This document shows, in pieces, positions 20,567-51,214 of a stretch of 64,000 nt of DNA. Position 1 is the first letter of the stretch. Each line of letters begins with the position of its first letter. The translations under genes were made by a program, and so were the position numbers. The notes under the pieces were generated by a model, which was given only the letters and a program-made list of their open reading frames with translations, was not told the origin of the DNA and did not search any database. This DNA comes from Noviherbaspirillum pedocola (GTDB lineage: Bacteria; Pseudomonadota; Gammaproteobacteria; Burkholderiales; Burkholderiaceae_D), in assembly GCF_016632335.1 (NCBI RefSeq), contig NZ_JAEPBG010000007.1:124001-188000 (forward strand). The letters run 5' to 3'.

Positions 20567-21310
20567 ATGAGCACCCAATTCGATATCGGTGTCGACGACG
20601 TCGGCCCGTACCAGATCCATGGCCGCCGCGAGATCATCGCGCTGCTGCGGCGGCTGATAGAGCAGCGCCAGCTGGTGCGCATGATCTTCTCCGAAGGCGG
20701 CGAAGCCATCGCCACGACGGTGCTGGCCGCCAACGAGGATGGCGTGATCATCGACACCGTGCGCGATGCCGCGCAGGTCGATCGCATCCTGAAGAGTCGC
20801 TCGGTGTCCTTCGATACCACGCTGGACCGGATCCGCATCGCCTTCTTCGCCGCGAAGCTGCAAACCGCTTCCTGGGAAGGCACGCCGGCACTGTCCATGA
20901 CACTGCCGGACAGCATGATCCGGCTGCAGCGTCGCGAGAATTACCGTGTGCTCACGCCGCGCTGCACGATACAGATGCCGGCCGAAGGCAATGACGATGC
21001 GCGCCGCCTGGCCTTCCCGGTGCAGAACCTGTCCGCCGGCGGCGTGGCGCTGATCGACGACAAGCTCAAGATCAATGCAACGCGCGGCCATCAGTACGAG
21101 GAGTGCGAACTGCAGCTGCCGGGCACGCAAAGCTTTCACGCCAGCCTGCGCGTGATGAACAGCCAGGACATCACACTGTACGACGGCAGAGTGGCGCGTC
21201 GCATCGGCTGCGAATTCGTCAATCTCGGCGGCGCGACGCTGGCGCTGGTGCAGCGCTATGTCAGCAAGGTACAGCGGGATCAGAACGCGAAGATGAACGG
21301 CATGGCCTGA
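20567..21310 (+). CDS. ycgR: Flagellar brake protein YcgR (PilZ, cyclic-di-GMP receptor)
   Basis: A 247-residue protein with an N-terminal YcgR domain (about 10-115) and a PilZ domain. The cyclic-di-GMP motifs are intact: RRENYRV (RxxxR type, about 125-131) and NLSAGG (D/NxSxxG, about 155-160). When bound to cyclic-di-GMP, YcgR slows the motor. Here it ends a flagellar gene cluster and is a natural output for the GGDEF/EAL proteins encoded at 30-33 kb. Confidence 0.9.
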   Translation: MSTQFDIGVDDVGPYQIHGRREIIALLRRLIEQRQLVRMIFSEGGEAIATTVLAANEDGVIIDTVRDAAQVDRILKSRSVSFDTTLDRIRIAFFAAKLQTASWEGTPALSMTLPDSMIRLQRRENYRVLTPRCTIQMPAEGNDDARRLAFPVQNLSAGGVALIDDKLKINATRGHQYEECELQLPGTQSFHASLRVMNSQDITLYDGRVARRIGCEFVNLGGATLALVQRYVSKVQRDQNAKMNGMA

Positions 21311-24934: not shown

Positions 24935-25237
24935 GTTGCAGTTGCAGTTGCAGTTGCAGTTGCAGCTGGTTTTGGCTTTTGTCGTTGTCGTTGCCGTTGC
25001 CGTTGCAGTTGCTTTTAATCCCGTTGATCGCGCCGTGTCGCCGGGCCCTGAAGCGGATAAGGTGCGGCGTCTGTCTGAGCGAAGCGCAGCGTAGCGAGTT
25101 TAGCCGCGCCCCGCTTCAGGGCCCGGCGACACGGGAACCCCGCGCAGCGGGGCGCGATCTCCGGGTCGCCTTTTCTTGGTTACTTCTTTTGGCGAATGCA
25201 AAAGAAGTGACCCGGCTGCCGGGCCGGGACCCGGCTT
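24935..25237. repeat. Left arm of a large imperfect inverted repeat
   Basis: It starts with five GTTGCA hexamers (24935-24964), then GTTGCC/GTTGTC units, then a 22-bp perfect hairpin arm pair (25035-25056 with 25111-25132) and a small ACTTCTTTT/AAAAGAAGT hairpin (25182-25208). The whole arm is collinear with the reverse complement of 25401-25742. No protein-coding content is recognised between 24789 and 25856. Confidence 0.85.
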
Positions 25238-25400: not shown

Positions 25401-25742
25401 TAGCCGGGTCCCGGCCCGGCAGCCGGCCTACTTCTTTTGCGCGCCAAAAGAAGTAGGCAAGAAAAGGCGCCCCGGAGATTGCGCCCCGCTGCGCGGGGTC
25501 CCCGTGCCGTCGATGCCCGAAGCGGGGCGCGGCTAAACTCGCTACGCTGCGCTGCGCTCAAACAGACGCCGCACCTTTTCCCGCTCCGGGCATCGCCGTC
25601 ACGGCGCAATCAACGGGGGTTAAAAGCAACGGCAACGGCAACGACAGAGGCAACGGCAACGGCAACGGCAACGGCAACTGCAACTGCAACTGCAACTGCA
25701 ACTGCAACTGCAACTGCAACTGCAACTGCAACTGCAACTGCA
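25401..25742. repeat. Right arm of the large imperfect inverted repeat
   Basis: The reverse complement follows the left arm module by module: the ACTTCTTTT hairpin (here an 11-bp perfect stem, 25428-25438 with 25446-25456), the long hairpin (25503-25526 with 25580-25603), then GGCAAC units and 11 CAACTG hexamers (25675-25740). The long hairpin keeps its pairing although its stem sequence differs from that of the left arm. A 163-bp spacer lies between the arms. Confidence 0.85.
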
Positions 25743-29495: not shown

Positions 29496-29659
29496 CTAGA
29501 GCGTATTCGCCCTGACTGGACTCAACGAGGCCGAGGTGCATTGTCGTCGGAACAAGGCGCGACGACGAGCCGTACCGGAAGTACGGCGAGGAGCCGCAAC
29601 GCAGTGCCGGCGGCAATGCGGCCGGCGTCGTGAGGCTGGTCAGGGTGAATACGCTCTAG
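29496..29659. mobile_element. MITE-like 164-bp element with terminal inverted repeats
   Basis: The ends are CTAGAGCGTATTC plus GCCCTGAC and its complement. The 24-bp terminal repeats (29496-29519 and 29636-29659) match at 21 positions, 20 of the outer 21. The interior is GC-rich with a CCGTAC/GTACGG hairpin and no coding capacity. A truncated relative lies at 14821-14885, which shows the family is dispersed. No target duplication is obvious. The element sits between a minus-strand gene and the PYP-like operon and may shape expression of either. Confidence 0.75.
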
Positions 29660-29808
29660 GCGCATGCTGTTTTCGACCATAACAACGAACGACGATTCCC
29701 AAACACAGTAATCACGGCATTGCATGACGGAAATACGTTATGATGAGCCAAAATATTGCCGTTTGAAAACTTTTTATAACAAAGTAGCGATAACCGTCGG
29801 TTACTCCC

Positions 29809-30201
29809 ATGCAAACTCTTGCTCTACCTTATTTCGAACAGGCCGATTTGCTGAGCGCATTGGCCGACTGCACCCAGGACCAACTCGATGCGCTGGGGTT
29901 CGGCGTGATTGGCTTCGACGCCGCAGGCGTGGTGCGGCGATACAACCGTTTCGAGTCGGTCGCTTCCGGACTGTCGCCGCAGCGCGTGCTGAACGCTGAA
30001 CTGTTTTCTACGGTGGCGCCGTGCATGAACAACTTCATGGTGGCGCAGCGCTTCGAGGATGCTGCGGCAACCGGCGCGGCGCTCGACGACACCATCGCCT
30101 ATGTGCTGACGCTGCGCATGCGGCCCACGCGCGTGAAGCTGCGTCTTCTGGCCGATCCCGCGCAGGAGATGCGCTATGTACTGGTTGAGCGTGCAGTCTG
30201 A
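29809..30201 (+). CDS. Photoactive-yellow-protein-like photosensor
   Basis: A 130-residue PAS-fold protein aligning along its length with Halorhodospira PYP (125 residues). Tyr45, Glu49 and Cys72 match PYP Tyr42, Glu46 and Cys69 at a constant offset: RYNRFE and TVAPC correspond to QYNAAE and DVAPC. Cys69 holds the p-coumaroyl chromophore by thioester, and Tyr42/Glu46 hydrogen-bond its phenolate. Thr50 and Arg52 are Ser53 and Leu55 here, so spectral tuning should differ. Chromophore genes (tyrosine ammonia lyase, coumaroyl ligase) are not in the window. It begins the GGDEF/LOV operon. Confidence 0.85.
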   Translation: MQTLALPYFEQADLLSALADCTQDQLDALGFGVIGFDAAGVVRRYNRFESVASGLSPQRVLNAELFSTVAPCMNNFMVAQRFEDAAATGAALDDTIAYVLTLRMRPTRVKLRLLADPAQEMRYVLVERAV

Positions 30202-30204
30202 GCC

Positions 30205-31524
30205 ATGAACCACGCCAACGGCATCGAAGCGGAATACGAGGCGCTACTGCAATTTCTCTATCTGGCGCCGGTCGGTCTGGTACAGATGACGCCGGACGGC
30301 GGCGTCACGATCATGAACCCCCTGGCGGCGCAGCTGTTGATGCCGCTGTCGCGCGACGGCGGCCTGGACAATCTGTTCCGCGTGCTCGAGCCGGTTGCGC
30401 CGGAGTTGCGCAACCTGGCCGAATCCTTTACCGCTGACAGCGGCACCATCTGCGACTCGCTGCGGGTGCAGCTCACCGCCGGCATTCCGGGTCGCGTCGA
30501 TCCGCGCATGCTGTCGGTGTCGCTGCTGCGCCTGGATGCGGCGCGGACCATGGCGGTGCTCACCGACATCACCGTGGCCGTCAAGCGCGAGCGCCAGCTG
30601 CGGCAGAGCGAAGCCTGGTTCAATGCGGTGCTCAACGACGTGACCGACTATGCGCTCATGGCGCTGGATACGGCCGGCCGCATCGAAATCTGGAACCCCG
30701 GCATCGCGCGGCTGACCGGCTATGACGCCGCCCGCGTGACCGGGCAAAGCCTGGCGCTGTTCCATGCGCCGGGCGCGATCACGCCGGAGCGTATCGCCGA
30801 CCGGCTGCATGAAGCCGATTGCAATGGCTGGAGCCTGGACGAAGGCTGGTGCGTGCGCGCTGATGGCAGCCGCTTCTGGGCCAGCACGATGATCGCTCCG
30901 CTCACCGGCATCGACGATGAACCGAATGGTCAAACGGAAGAGGCCCGCGGCTATGCGCTGATCATTCGGGACATCAGCGACCGGCGTGACAACGCCGAGC
31001 GGCTGCTGCGCGAAAGCGAATGCGATCACCTGACCGGCATCGCCAACCGCCGCAAATTCTTCCAGGTGGCGGAGCTCGAGCTGCAGCGCTGGAATCGCGC
31101 GCCGCGGCCGCTGGCGCTGTTGGTGATCGACGCAGACCATTTCAAGCGCATCAACGACACCTGGGGCCATGCGGCCGGCGACGCCGTGCTGCGCAATCTG
31201 GCGCGCACGCTCACGTCCTCGCTGCGCGATATCGATGCGGTCGCGCGCATCGGCGGCGAGGAATTCGCCGCGCTGTTGCCGTCGACCGATTTGGCCGACG
31301 CAATGAACCTGGCGCAGCGCCTGTGCGATGCGGTTGCGGCGCAGCGCGTGGACATCGGCGACAGCAGCATCGGCTATACCGTCAGCATCGGCGTGGCGGT
31401 GATGCACAAGGGCATCGCCGGCCTGGATTTGTTGCTGCGCGAAGCCGATGCCGGGCTGTATAGCGCCAAGCGCGCCGGCCGCAATCGCATCGCCCATGCG
31501 GCGCCCACCCTGGAGAACGCGTGA
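30205..31524 (+). CDS. PAS-PAS-GGDEF diguanylate cyclase
   Basis: A 439-residue soluble protein. A first PAS-like domain spans about 12-125, a second about 137-262 (YALMALDTAGRIEIWNPGIA), and a GGDEF domain about 272-435. The active site GGEEF (350-354) is intact, as are DADHFKRIND and the product-inhibition site RDID (341-344, RxxD five residues before GGEEF). It should make cyclic-di-GMP. It starts three bases after the PYP-like stop codon, so the two are almost certainly co-translated; PYP could be its light-sensing partner. Confidence 0.9.
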   Translation: MNHANGIEAEYEALLQFLYLAPVGLVQMTPDGGVTIMNPLAAQLLMPLSRDGGLDNLFRVLEPVAPELRNLAESFTADSGTICDSLRVQLTAGIPGRVDPRMLSVSLLRLDAARTMAVLTDITVAVKRERQLRQSEAWFNAVLNDVTDYALMALDTAGRIEIWNPGIARLTGYDAARVTGQSLALFHAPGAITPERIADRLHEADCNGWSLDEGWCVRADGSRFWASTMIAPLTGIDDEPNGQTEEARGYALIIRDISDRRDNAERLLRESECDHLTGIANRRKFFQVAELELQRWNRAPRPLALLVIDADHFKRINDTWGHAAGDAVLRNLARTLTSSLRDIDAVARIGGEEFAALLPSTDLADAMNLAQRLCDAVAAQRVDIGDSSIGYTVSIGVAVMHKGIAGLDLLLREADAGLYSAKRAGRNRIAHAAPTLENA

Positions 31525-31540
31525 AATCCGGCGCGCGAGC

Positions 31541-33295
31541 ATGAGCGAGAACACCATGCCGCACAACGATGCCGATGCTGCGCGCCAGGCGCGGCTGATC
31601 AGCCTCGGCCTGTACGAACGCTCGGTAGAAGCCAGCGCCAACGCCATGATGATCACCAGCGCCGAAGCGCCGGAGTATGCGATCGAATATGTGAATCCCG
31701 CCTTCGAGCGCATCACCGGCTATAGCGCGGGGGAAGTCATCGGCCGCAACTGCCGCTTCCTGCAGGGCGATGACCAGGATCAGCCGGGACTGCAGGAAAT
31801 CCGCAGGGCGCTCGCCGAGCAGCGTGCCACCAACGTGGTGCTGCGCAATTACCGCAAGGACGGCACGCTGTTCTGGAATCACCTGTACGTGGCGCCGGTG
31901 GAGGATACGGATGGCGCCGTGACCCACTTCGTGGCCTCACAGTACGACATCACCGAGATCAAGAGCTACGAGATGACGCTGCGCCACCTGGCCACGCATG
32001 ACGAGCTCACTGGCCTAGCCAACCGCAGCCTGCTCAATGACCACTTGCGCGGCGCCATGGCGCGGGCCGAGCGCAGCGGCAGCCAGATCTGGGTCGTGTT
32101 TCTCGACCTCGACCGTTTCAAGGTATTCAACGACAGCCTCGGCCACATGGCCGGCGATGTGTTCCTGATGACGATCGCGCAGCGGCTGCAGGCCTCGCTG
32201 CGCGCCACCGACCTGGTCGCGCGCCTGTCCAGCGACGAATTTGCGCTGGTGCTGTGCGAACAGCCGGGTCACCGCCTGAATTTTCTGCTGCTCGAGCGCA
32301 TCGCCAATGCGGTGCAGCAGGCGCTGCAATTCGACCGCAAGGATTTCTTCCTGACCTGCAGCATGGGCGTGGCGATTTATCCGGCCGATGGCGTGGATGC
32401 CGAACAATTGATCGAGCGCGCCGACATGGCGATGTTCCAGGCCAAGGAACGCGGCCGCAACAACTACCAGTTCTATACCGACGCGATCAACCAGCGCGCC
32501 CTGGAGCGCATGCAGATCGGCAGCGCGCTGCGCGCCGCCATCGAGCGCGAGGAATTCGTGCTGCATTACCAGCCGCAGCTCGATCTCGACAGCGGCCGCG
32601 TGATCGGCACGGAGGCGCTGATCCGCTGGCGGCATCCGGAAATGGGCCTGGTCTATCCGGACCGCTTCATCGGCATTGCCGAGGAAACCGGGCTGATCGT
32701 GGCCATTGGCGACTGGGTGCTGCGAACCGCGTGCCAGGAAACGAAACGCTTGCAGGGCTTGGGGCATCCGGACTTGCGGGTTGCGGTGAATCTGTCGGCG
32801 CGCCAGTTCGCGCGCAGCGATCTGGCGCATGGCATCGAAGCCGCGCTGCAGGATTCCGGGCTCGAACCCTGCTGCCTGGAAATCGAAATCACCGAGAGCC
32901 TGATGATGCATGACGTCGATGGCGCGATCGGCTCGCTCCGGGCATTGAAGGATTTGGGCGTGCGCCTGTCGATCGATGACTTCGGCACCGGCTATTCGTC
33001 GCTGGCTTATCTGAAGCGCTTCCCGATCGACAATCTGAAGATCGATCGCTCCTTTGTTTCGGACATCGTTTCAGGGCACGAGGAAGCGGCGATCGTGTCA
33101 TCGATCATCTCGCTTGCGCACAACCTGAGATTGCAGGTCACGGCCGAGGGTGTGGAGACCGAGGAACAGCTTGCCTATCTGCGCAATCGCCGCTGCAACA
33201 AGATGCAGGGTTATCTGTTCAGCAAGCCTGTGCCGGCCGAGATGCTGCCGGCCCTGCTGGGCGCGTGTTTGCCTGCGCCGGCAACCGCGCTCTGA
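31541..33295 (+). CDS. LOV-GGDEF-EAL blue-light-type cyclic-di-GMP phosphodiesterase
   Basis: A 584-residue soluble protein. The LOV domain (about 28-140) has the full flavin signature: GRNCRFLQG with photoactive Cys71, Asn103 (RNYRKDG), Asn113 (FWN) and Gln134 (SQYDIT). The GGDEF domain (about 148-315) is degenerate, SSDEF at 230-234, although RATD at the inhibitory site remains. The EAL domain (about 330-575) is intact: TEALIRW (357-363), EIEITES, DDFGTGYSSL and AEGVE. It should degrade cyclic-di-GMP, with light acting through LOV. ATG 31541 starts 16 bases after the upstream gene. Confidence 0.93.
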   Translation: MSENTMPHNDADAARQARLISLGLYERSVEASANAMMITSAEAPEYAIEYVNPAFERITGYSAGEVIGRNCRFLQGDDQDQPGLQEIRRALAEQRATNVVLRNYRKDGTLFWNHLYVAPVEDTDGAVTHFVASQYDITEIKSYEMTLRHLATHDELTGLANRSLLNDHLRGAMARAERSGSQIWVVFLDLDRFKVFNDSLGHMAGDVFLMTIAQRLQASLRATDLVARLSSDEFALVLCEQPGHRLNFLLLERIANAVQQALQFDRKDFFLTCSMGVAIYPADGVDAEQLIERADMAMFQAKERGRNNYQFYTDAINQRALERMQIGSALRAAIEREEFVLHYQPQLDLDSGRVIGTEALIRWRHPEMGLVYPDRFIGIAEETGLIVAIGDWVLRTACQETKRLQGLGHPDLRVAVNLSARQFARSDLAHGIEAALQDSGLEPCCLEIEITESLMMHDVDGAIGSLRALKDLGVRLSIDDFGTGYSSLAYLKRFPIDNLKIDRSFVSDIVSGHEEAAIVSSIISLAHNLRLQVTAEGVETEEQLAYLRNRRCNKMQGYLFSKPVPAEMLPALLGACLPAPATAL

Positions 33296-48469: not shown

Positions 48470-48940
48470 TCAACCAGGCAATAGTCCATTTGCAAGAACT
48501 GACAGACGGTTCTCTGCAAAACCGTCGGAGGAACGGCTTAGTCCATCGAGTTCTTCGCGAATTTTTTCCACCGCTGCAGCCATTCTCTCAACGTGCGTCA
48601 CAAGTCTTTGTCCGTTCAAGGTTTCCAGTTCCAGTCGCGCACACGCCATGAACTCTCCAGTTCCGCTGTCAAGTGCAAATGCCGTACCCAAACTCCGGTC
48701 TTGAAAGAGATTTGCCTCCAGCAATAATCGCAAAGCAGTCTCTCCACCGGCAAAGGGAGCTGGCCCAATCGAAGAATAAAGGTGAAGAACATTTTGATTA
48801 GGGTCGTGCTCGAAGTCGATCAGCATCGCGCCATCAAGTTGAAGACGGGCCATGCCTCGTTCATCCAGAGCGAAATTTGGCAAATTGGCTAAAGCGGCGA
48901 AATCAGAAATCACATCCATGGCATTCACCTTTTTCTTCAT
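48470..48940 (-). CDS. CesT-family type III secretion chaperone
   Basis: A 156-residue acidic protein. The pattern is that of class I chaperones: an N-terminal helix (FAALANLPNFALDE), antiparallel strands (ARLQLDGAMLIDFEHD, VLHLYSSIG), then LRLLLEANLFQ and a strand GTAFALDSGTGEFMACARLE, closing in a long helix. Its ATG follows the stop codon of the 757-residue gene with no gap, so the two are one unit. A start at 48919 is also possible. Class I chaperones normally bind one neighbouring effector. Confidence 0.82.
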   Translation of the reverse strand: MKKKVNAMDVISDFAALANLPNFALDERGMARLQLDGAMLIDFEHDPNQNVLHLYSSIGPAPFAGGETALRLLLEANLFQDRSLGTAFALDSGTGEFMACARLELETLNGQRLVTHVERMAAAVEKIREELDGLSRSSDGFAENRLSVLANGLLPG

Positions 48941-51214
48941 TTAATCTTCTATTGTTTGGACCTGTTTTATCGGCCCCTTATTTTTTTCGCTTGCATTACG
49001 CAAACGGTGATATCCACCGACTTCGGGCTCACGCTCAGTTATATGCCCCGAAAACTCATATTCCCCCAATATAGGCGCACTTACATTACCACTTTCATCC
49101 ACCAGGAATTCCGCCTCGAGAAAGAAGGATGAAGTATTTTTATCCAAGTTGAATATCCCCCCACCTATGACTTCAAGCGCCTGACTCAATTCCTCGTTAC
49201 ACATTGCAAATTTCACCGAAACCTGTCCATTTTCAAGGCGGGAAAGGTTAAAAACAAAATCCGACTTCGTCGGCACCAAGCTAGATTCATCCGGTGATGC
49301 GACACTCATCGATTCCGGCTTCTTCAATTTATCAGAAGACAATTTGAGGAGCGGCTCGCGTATAAACACCTCTTGTATTGAATTGCTGGGGGCTTGATTC
49401 AAAATCATCATCAACGATCCAGCCTGATCGTAATTATTTTTGGTGATATTCAATATTTTCTTGTGTGCGCGACTTATCATGGCTTCACGACTGTAACCGC
49501 TGGAACCCAAGAATGGTTTCCCATCAAAAAATATACTGAGATCCCGAGGCACATCTTGAGCAAACGCTTTATGCGTATCCTCCACTTTCCTGGCATCAAG
49601 CGGAGCGCTTTTTATCGCTCCGACTCTTTGTTGAATGGATGCAGACCAAGACTTCCCAAAATCGTCCAGGTTAACTCCATCATCGCCACTGTCTTTTGTT
49701 TTTAGTTGCTTCCCGCTCAAAAACTTAAAAACTCTCTCGGCTTTTCTAAACGCCATCGGAGAAATTTGTTCTTGCGCAGACGTACTTTCAATATCAACCT
49801 CAAACACCTCGAACAAGCAATTCAACAACTTGACGAATTCATTACTATGTCCCCCTCCCTCTTTCAGCAACGCAGCACGAAGAGTAATCAGACGCCGAAC
49901 ACAGCCATCTGACGTCAAATTTATCTTTTCAATAGGGTCAAAACCATCAAATAATTTCTTAAGAATTTCGGATGGGCTGGACTGCGGGAACATTAATTGT
50001 TGTTTTCCGACGTAGCTCTTCAATTTGAAAATTCCTTCATACATACGCATAAAACTATTCTCAGAGCAACTGAATAGCAGCGCATTTCTCACTGCATGGT
50101 CAGGCATGAAAGGTTTTTTTATCGCATGTATTGGACTTCTTTTTTTATATTCGTCAGCTAGTTTTTTGGTGAACGGGGATTTTGGGTAAGCATCTTTGCC
50201 GAGCTTCATCAGTTCCGTCAGCTCATCATCGTAAAGGCGCTCGGGGAGCTTGCATTTGGCATTGAAATCAGCTTCACGCTGCTTCTGGCGCATTTTTAGC
50301 TTTTCAGTAAGATTTCGCGAAAGATCCAGCTTGATCTGTTGACTGGCCTCTTCCCACCAATTTTTCTTACTCGGATTCATCCCAAGAGTACTAGCCAACA
50401 TAGATTCACATTTACCAAAAACAGTATCATTCCCAATGCTAGCTTCAAGCAAAGCAAACTTTGCTTTTACGCTTGCTTGACTCCAAAGTATATCGAACTG
50501 CTGTTTGATTTCAGAGGAGATATCAAACCCACCATGGACCTTAAGCTCCATAACGACATCTTGTAAAAGATCGCCATTCACATCTCCATTCGATGCAGCA
50601 CTAAAAAGATATTCCAACGGTTTTCGCATGGATTGAGCAACACAGCTTTTCACTGCATTTTCAAGGTGATCTACGACGCCATGACTTCTACAGAAAAGCT
50701 CATTGTCCTTTTTTATCTTCGTGAGCGCATTCCGGACGTTTAACTCCTGCTCCGCACTCAGACCAGAAAAATGTTTGGCCAATATTTCAGGAAACAATTT
50801 TGCTTTTTCACTTGTATAGCCGCACAAAGCTGATGCCGCCTCAAAACTGTGCTGCAGCTTTTTCCAAAGCCGTGCATCCTTTTTTGGATCAAACTTTCCC
50901 TGCTTCTCCATCAAGAATCGGATCACTTCCCCAATGTCACGGGACAGGTCCGCTATTGCATGTCTCTCATGCATGGAGCGACGCGCTTCGGTACGCAAGG
51001 TCGTCAGATTTTCGAAATGTCTTTCAAAAAAGCTGCGGATATAGGACAAGCGACTCGGCCTGAAAATCGCTCTGGGTTGCGGCGCGGATTGCTGAACGAG
51101 CGTTCGCGTTCCAATAAATCCAAGCCTCTCTTCATTGTTCAATGCAGGCGCAATGGAATCGGCGAAGGATTGCGCAGGAATTTGGCTTCTTGCTTGTATA
51201 ACGGATGAGCTCAT
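48941..51214 (-). CDS. Candidate type III effector of unknown family
   Basis: A 757-residue soluble protein that I do not recognise. The N-terminus (about 1-40) is Ser/Gln/Ala-rich and lacks a signal peptide, like a type III secretion signal. Residues about 60-400 are helical and Lys-rich, a Ser/Lys middle follows, and residues about 680-740 are strand-rich (FFLEAEFLVDESGNVSAPIL). No catalytic motif is obvious. The DNA is AT-rich (22 G+C of 60 bases at 49201-49260, against 45 of 60 at 53281-53340), which suggests horizontal transfer. A CesT chaperone gene follows immediately. Effector status is inferred. Confidence 0.72.
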   Translation of the reverse strand: MSSSVIQARSQIPAQSFADSIAPALNNEERLGFIGTRTLVQQSAPQPRAIFRPSRLSYIRSFFERHFENLTTLRTEARRSMHERHAIADLSRDIGEVIRFLMEKQGKFDPKKDARLWKKLQHSFEAASALCGYTSEKAKLFPEILAKHFSGLSAEQELNVRNALTKIKKDNELFCRSHGVVDHLENAVKSCVAQSMRKPLEYLFSAASNGDVNGDLLQDVVMELKVHGGFDISSEIKQQFDILWSQASVKAKFALLEASIGNDTVFGKCESMLASTLGMNPSKKNWWEEASQQIKLDLSRNLTEKLKMRQKQREADFNAKCKLPERLYDDELTELMKLGKDAYPKSPFTKKLADEYKKRSPIHAIKKPFMPDHAVRNALLFSCSENSFMRMYEGIFKLKSYVGKQQLMFPQSSPSEILKKLFDGFDPIEKINLTSDGCVRRLITLRAALLKEGGGHSNEFVKLLNCLFEVFEVDIESTSAQEQISPMAFRKAERVFKFLSGKQLKTKDSGDDGVNLDDFGKSWSASIQQRVGAIKSAPLDARKVEDTHKAFAQDVPRDLSIFFDGKPFLGSSGYSREAMISRAHKKILNITKNNYDQAGSLMMILNQAPSNSIQEVFIREPLLKLSSDKLKKPESMSVASPDESSLVPTKSDFVFNLSRLENGQVSVKFAMCNEELSQALEVIGGGIFNLDKNTSSFFLEAEFLVDESGNVSAPILGEYEFSGHITEREPEVGGYHRLRNASEKNKGPIKQVQTIED

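Follow-up and report, generated by a model that had tools for sequence, protein, structure and literature searches.

Photoactive yellow proteins (PYPs) of clade C retain Tyr42, Glu46, Cys69 and Met100, have lost F92, F96 and W119, and are encoded next to GGDEF genes (Xing et al. 2022, PMC9664959); as of that study, according to which none had been characterized, their adjacency to GGDEF genes was a matter of record, and it has been published again since (Dohmen et al. 2025, PMC12826048). The latter study lists 113 predicted pyp operons, 29 of them with GGDEF/EAL genes, 17 with kinase genes and two (in Caballeronia) pairing PYP with the flavin photoreceptor BLUF, and calls the PYP signal transduction chain an important knowledge gap. 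In Idiomarina loihiensis, a clade A PYP is encoded beside a GGDEF protein and a role in biofilms has been proposed (PMC9664959). The LOV-GGDEF-EAL protein SL2 of Synechococcus elongatus hydrolyzes cyclic di-GMP (c-di-GMP) in blue light in vitro, and the DgcO-PdeO operon of E. coli co-transcribes an opposing cyclase and phosphodiesterase, each with its own sensor (PMC8846402). Here, we analyze three genes for a PYP, a diguanylate cyclase (DGC) and a LOV-GGDEF-EAL protein in Noviherbaspirillum pedocola, located in a stretch of 64,000 nt (contig NZ_JAEPBG010000007.1, positions 124,001 to 188,000; the window) of a 7.24-Mb draft genome.

On balance, we think that this clade-C PYP probably signals via PAS1, the first domain of the adjacent DGC, to exchangeable outputs, which here act on c-di-GMP, and that the LOV enzyme is independent of it. 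Sequence, gene order, distribution and a predicted fold form the basis of this reading, from which we infer chromophore, binding and the effect of light. The features that it builds on are the following:

29809..30201, + strand: pyp-C, a single-domain PYP homologue of 130 aa, assigned by profile, solved homologues, predicted fold and residues
30205..31524, + strand: predicted DGC, PAS1-PAS2-GGDEF, 439 aa, with GGEEF and RxxD I-site, assigned by sequence and model
30205..30579, + strand: PAS1 domain, candidate PYP-docking domain, also present in PAS1-GGDEF-EAL proteins and in some histidine kinases encoded next to clade-C pyp
31541..33295, + strand: LOV-GGDEF-EAL protein, 584 aa, with LOV Cys motif, SSDEF and intact EAL; found in the third slot as a lineage-specific gene
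29791..29803, no strand assigned: 13-bp palindrome TAACCGTCGGTTA, possible operator, just 5' of the pyp start

The three genes are co-directional and separated by gaps of 3 and 16 bp. An earlier sequence-only reading had described them as encoding a PYP-like protein, a GGEEF cyclase and a LOV-SSDEF-EAL protein, and open reading frames (ORFs), motifs and profiles bear this out. The third ORF was called mechanically from 31448; we prefer the start at 31541, which agrees with the homologue in locus L039. Neither gap contains a terminator-like match in a scan that yields no more matches than its shuffles, and a scan of the region gave no promoter-like sites. Ratios of nonsynonymous to synonymous substitution rates (dN/dS) of 0.12-0.42 across the pairs tested point to purifying selection. 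Altogether, gene order and spacing support the idea that PYP, DGC and the LOV-linked EAL enzyme form an operon-like set.

A clade-C-type PYP and the PAS1 domain beside it

The first protein is a PYP on several counts, and this identity is not due to chance. First, it matches the PYP profile TIGR02373 (E=3.6e-22), with 78.7 bits where the equivalog cut-off is 143.05 bits; TIGR02373 covers 20% of the PYP homologues found by BLAST (PMC9664959). Second, its best solved homologue is the PYP domain of Ppr (E=4.8e-16), and its AlphaFold model, with a predicted local distance difference test score (pLDDT) of 93.3, has the PYP fold in that the first 40 Foldseek matches are all PYP or the PYP-derived FAST/nanoFAST. 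Third, Y45, E49 and C72 correspond to Y42, E46 and C69 of H. halophila PYP, i.e., the protein has the Cys69 by which PMC9664959 recognizes PYP homologues and, in addition, Tyr42 and Glu46. This triad is present in all 148 sequences compared (the window and 147 deduplicated relatives, with identities down to ~44%), a set in which the loci from named genomes were found with patterns including PYP stretches, which favors conserved sites; it is also present in the window and in 97 of 97 loci of the family, which were found without PYP-derived sequence patterns. The protein further has the clade-C-type residues S53, L55, I96, L100, M104 and Y123; in PYP numbering, position 50 is occupied by Ser in the window and by Ala in most relatives, position 52 is Leu, M100 is retained, and F92, F96 and W119 are replaced. 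By the published residue pattern, and not by tree position, we assign it to the clade-C PYPs of Burkholderiales (PYP-C), which were detected in 95 of 392 genomes drawn from the family.

The second protein carries GGEEF and an RxxD I-site (RDID), as expected of a diguanylate cyclase. Its model, in which a GGDEF domain follows two folds that are PAS-like and which has a mean pLDDT of 84 and a predicted template modeling score of 0.46, is used at the level of domains only. PAS1 has no Pfam match near any cut-off in the window DGC, and one of 13 relatives matches PAS_7 (E=2.8e-4).

To compare outputs, we used 147 deduplicated loci with a PYP match of at least 40% identity, excluding loci with identical pyp DNA and those retrieved solely on account of a second PYP (L118, L137 and L138); the search of named genomes drew on the best 80 of 99 relatives. 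Downstream of pyp on the same strand, the first such gene encodes a PAS1 protein in 147 of 147 loci. The distance from the pyp stop to the start of PAS1 is at most 60 nt in 135 loci and at most 200 nt in 146; in the remaining one, L217, it is 2.2 kb. Automatic classification, which is partly imprecise and was corrected in places by closer inspection, gave a DGC followed by a PAS-GGDEF-EAL protein in 92 loci, a DGC without a called third gene in 17, a PYP before a PAS-GGDEF-EAL protein without a called DGC in 17 (plus one with broken frames), PAS-PAS without GGDEF followed by PAS-GGDEF-EAL in seven, PAS-PAS alone in one, an altered GGDEF motif in five, a single PAS-PAS-GGDEF-EAL protein in three and a DGC followed by a LOV-GGDEF-EAL protein in one; all of the three unclassified loci encode a PAS1 protein. 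On inspection, GGDEF lies in another frame in two PAS-PAS cases (L041 and L079), a further piece follows in three of the 17 DGC-only loci, and another PAS1 ORF is present in three of the 17 loci in which PYP directly precedes PAS-GGDEF-EAL. L105 contains a PAS1 remnant of 200 aa, and the third gene of L124 is truncated by the end of the contig; L183 has one more PAS1-GGDEF piece, L218 an EAL ORF of its own, and L158 and L202 each an extra PAS1 kinase. None of the ORFs in the compared loci encodes a PYP-GGDEF fusion. Across these classes, then, the output varies, and what stays constant is PYP together with PAS1. In L043, L045, L048, L057 and L116, PYP and PAS1 are retained and the GGDEF motif of the first enzyme is altered.

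PAS1 recurs on three kinds of output. The PAS of the usual third gene aligns with DGC residues 1 to 120-159 (PAS1 and linker) in 147 of 154 alignments, duplicate loci included. An EAL protein is encoded in the stretch in 127 loci, and in 121 of these it bears PAS1; of the remaining six, L039 is the LOV case, and the EAL protein of the other five is split, truncated or of a different kind. Beside clade-C pyp, PAS1 is also fused to HisKA and HATPase in L158 (9242-10549), L202 (9304-10518) and L194 (1255-2445). L158 and L202 have this kinase besides a PAS1-GGDEF-EAL protein; in L194, from a bin labelled Archangium, the PAS1 histidine kinase starts 1 nt after PYP, and its PAS1 is 38% identical to that of the window.

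PAS1 is, moreover, nearly confined to genomes with PYP-C: at E<=1e-8, it was found in 95 of 95 such genomes of the family draw vs one of the 297 others (G072, with no PYP match at E<=1e-5), a co-occurrence inflated by physical linkage and common descent, such that the events are not independent. In 205 genomes drawn from the order, the same four carry PYP and PAS1, two of which are shared with the family draw, and a fifth (G513) shows only PYP matches of 26-30%. In the genus of the window, PAS1-GGDEF-EAL genes are unlinked in four of four genomes, the 13 kb retrieved in each case containing no PYP gene. L242 (a second copy in G096) and L243 (G072), likewise 13 kb each, contain a PAS1-PAS2-GGDEF gene and no PYP. 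Altogether, these comparative data strengthen the presumed link between PYP and DGC and make PAS1 a candidate PYP-docking domain.

The LOV enzyme in the third slot

The third protein contains GRNCRFLQ, SSDEF and RATD. Its LOV domain has close matches among bacterial LOV proteins of solved structure (E=1e-34), and the alignment includes the reactive Cys of GxNCRFLQ and the conserved N, N and Q of the flavin pocket, as predicted for a LOV photoreceptor. The catalytic positions of EAL domains (EAL, N, E, DD, K, E and Q) align with those of solved MorA. An intact GG(D/E)EF is replaced by SSDEF; the homologue in L039, from the genus genome G015, has GGDEF.

The sequence-only reading had proposed that the operon holds opposing enzymes, each linked to its own photosensor, and a dual-photoreceptor unit of this kind, with PYP and LOV acting one on the cyclase and the other on the phosphodiesterase to set a light-dependent c-di-GMP window jointly, is the alternative that survives best, even if we consider it unlikely. 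It agrees with the close gene spacing, the LOV Cys motif and the intact EAL as well as with the three-gene order kept in G015 at ~73% DNA identity, where the LOV-GGDEF-EAL gene has a dN/dS of 0.31. Against it stands the distribution of the third gene, for which conservation of the order had been put forward as a check: LOV occupies the third slot in two of four genus genomes, including that of the window, and in one of the 147 compared clade-C loci (L039). Outside N. pedocola, an orthologue of the LOV protein (68%) was found in just one of three genus genomes, G015. The gene is missing in N. soli despite flanks whose DNA identity to those of G015 is 90% as far as the DGC stop and 88% farther on; the ~2.0 kb with the LOV gene in G015 correspond to ~0.4 kb of unalignable DNA after the DGC stop in N. 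soli. The order CinA, PYP, DGC, XRE-position gene and PBP1A is the same in all three genus mates, and DsbA and RecQ were located in two of the three. The usual third gene encodes PAS1-GGDEF-EAL, and opposing enzymes thus occur without any LOV. Relatives of the whole third protein, with 53-62% identity among the matches listed, are present in 204 of 392 genomes of the family at E<=1e-175, so the protein belongs to an enzyme type that is widespread and has been gained or lost locally. Because LOV is third in only one of 147 loci, the LOV protein, judged by this comparison, falls outside the conserved PYP system and is a local addition. Of the original proposal, the part that stands is a PYP-DGC pair and a LOV-linked EAL enzyme in one operon-like set, and the part that falls is PYP and LOV as a conserved unit.

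The same reading had suggested that the operon acts on motility through YcgR. The ycgR gene at 20567-21310 is real, with PilZN and PilZ matches; however, the genome has 88 GGDEF matches, and nothing ties the operon to YcgR or singles YcgR out, so we rejected it as the target.

Proposed chromophore supply and mechanism, and surroundings

Evidence for a p-coumarate chromophore comes from the distribution of 4-coumarate-CoA ligase (pCL). The pCL of the N. pedocola genome passes TIGR02372 (354.2 vs 334.7 bits), as expected of a chromophore-activating ligase. Its gene lies 3 bp downstream of that for a second, canonical PYP, which passes TIGR02373, on the same contig ~62 kb upstream of the operon (L118:6624-8300, G000:C67). 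In the family draw, pCL was found in 61 of 95 PYP-C genomes vs two of 297 others, and in 43 of 77 when only PYP-C genomes without a second PYP are counted. A second PYP match (26-35% identity) occurs in 18 genomes, in five of which the key residues were inspected; PYP-C and pCL are present in all 18. In 60 of 147 loci, pCL and the clade-C gene are at most 5 kb apart, with pCL divergent in 43 and upstream on the same strand in 13. An aromatic lyase is encoded in seven of 147 loci, and genes for lyase, pCL, PYP, DGC and EAL are co-directional in the four of these loci from Methyloversatilis (L164, L167, L172 and L181). The lyases beside pyp in these seven have a selectivity region that is unusual by comparison with known lyases, and their substrate is unproven. 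A search for a tyrosine ammonia-lyase in the N. pedocola genome gave no convincing candidate: the lone match passes no cut-off.

Several points weigh against signaling from PYP-C via PAS1. F92, F96 and W119 are lost in clade C; pCL was not detected in 34 of 95 PYP-C genomes, with scoring limited to the best four candidates at most in each genome; and the single lyase of the N. pedocola genome is HutH-like, i.e., resembles histidine ammonia-lyase, and falls below the cut-offs of all eight matched families. Moreover, the pattern-based choice of loci and the inflated co-occurrence of PYP and PAS1, both described above, flatter the comparison, and in some relatives the first enzyme has an altered GGDEF or none at all, so the cyclase activity can be dispensed with. 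In a mirror-tree analysis of 111 sequences, PYP distances track PAS1 (partial r 0.42) over PAS2 (-0.04) and GGDEF (0.23), favoring a link between PYP and PAS1; this result is suggestive only, as the signal is weak (bootstrap: PAS1 over PAS2, 90%; PAS1 over GGDEF, 81%) and is confounded by PAS1 also being the part nearest to pyp.

The three lost residues, the PYP-C genomes with no pCL detected and the lack of a clear tyrosine ammonia-lyase in the N. pedocola genome would also fit a PYP-C that no longer binds p-coumarate and serves as a PAS adaptor for some other ligand, light entering via LOV only. The invariant triad, the strong association with pCL, often nearby, and the pCL of the N. pedocola genome itself all argue against this idea, which we regard as distinctly improbable. 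PAS domains frequently dimerize, and PAS1, present on both enzymes, might pair DGC and phosphodiesterase as a heterodimer with PYP merely co-regulated; this we doubt to a similar degree because of the PAS1 kinases, the only PAS1 protein in L194 being one, and the loci in which a lone PAS1 protein follows PYP within 4.5 kb (14 with DGC only and 14 with PAS1-GGDEF-EAL only, a partner at another locus being possible).

The PAS1 kinases, in turn, strengthen the case for signaling from PYP-C via PAS1 to exchangeable outputs. We suggest that PYP-C would carry p-coumarate activated by the pCL encoded ~62 kb away. Excitation by blue light would change the contact of PYP-C with PAS1, thereby altering the cyclase; the altered contact would also affect the PAS1-GGDEF-EAL enzyme, which in this genus is encoded at a separate locus. 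The LOV-GGDEF-EAL protein would most likely be an independent, blue-light-controlled phosphodiesterase from the same operon, without PAS1. More tentatively, and supported by the same kinases, PAS1 might be a dedicated dock on cyclases, phosphodiesterases and histidine kinases, making clade-C PYP a single soluble photoreceptor with interchangeable outputs, to which this genus adds a second blue-light input; we see this broader scheme as a serious possibility that falls short of being probable. If true, PAS1 on both cyclase and phosphodiesterase could allow PYP to drive them in opposite directions, and, with the phosphodiesterase half at another locus in this genus, the LOV enzyme in its slot would bring two chemistries of blue-light input to bear on one messenger.

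Other features of the surroundings were recorded. The palindrome at 29791 was rejected as a shared operator, occurring in none of the 150-nt stretches upstream in the 147 relatives. Also 5' of pyp, 20-base inverted termini with one mismatch (29497-29516 and 29639-29658) enclose ~160 bp that look like a small repeat element. Between histidine kinase and DsbA-like genes lies a 150-nt inverted repeat (88%; 25045-25194 and 25442-25591), flanked on both sides by hexamer repeats of the GTTGCA/GCAACT type (24935-25012 and 25626-25742). At 48470-51214, GC falls to ~0.48-0.51, and a CesT-family chaperone (PF05932) adjoins a 757-aa ORF; the two might represent a secretion cargo pair that was acquired. 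The N. pedocola genome (G000) is rich in c-di-GMP and light-sensing genes; it has three phytochrome PHY matches and no match to BLUF.

Comparison with known systems

The adjacency of PYP and GGDEF genes was already known; new here are the association of PAS1 with pyp, the occurrence of PAS1 across output types, the LOV enzyme as a local addition and, in this genome, a pCL next to a second PYP with no convincing tyrosine ammonia-lyase. Among the papers searched, none combines photoactive yellow protein and Massilia, and the main text of PMC9664959 mentions no Massilia, Duganella, Oxalobacter or Janthinobacterium. PAS1, nearly confined to PYP-C genomes in the sets searched, encoded directly after pyp and present on three kinds of output, offers a concrete candidate for the partner of PYP, and light switches could be built from a PYP whose PAS partner is separable.

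The window operon is close to the clade C PYPs of Xing et al. 2022, with which it shares the triad and Met100, the loss of F92, F96 and W119 and the adjacent GGDEF gene; the PAS1 domain and the LOV neighbor are not named in the available text of that study (PMC9664959). Among the pyp operons of PMC12826048, the flavin sensor is BLUF, whereas the window has LOV fused to GGDEF-EAL; the accessible portion of that paper neither reports a LOV gene within a pyp operon nor describes a PAS1 common to the outputs. The system of Idiomarina loihiensis is alike in the adjacency of PYP and GGDEF; however, its PYP is of clade A and that of the window has the clade-C pattern (PMC9664959). SL2 has the domain layout of the third protein, and no PYP operon is mentioned for it in the available text of PMC8846402. 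Finally, DgcO-PdeO resembles the window operon in its opposing, sensor-linked enzymes, but the signal there is oxygen, whereas we propose light here (PMC8846402).

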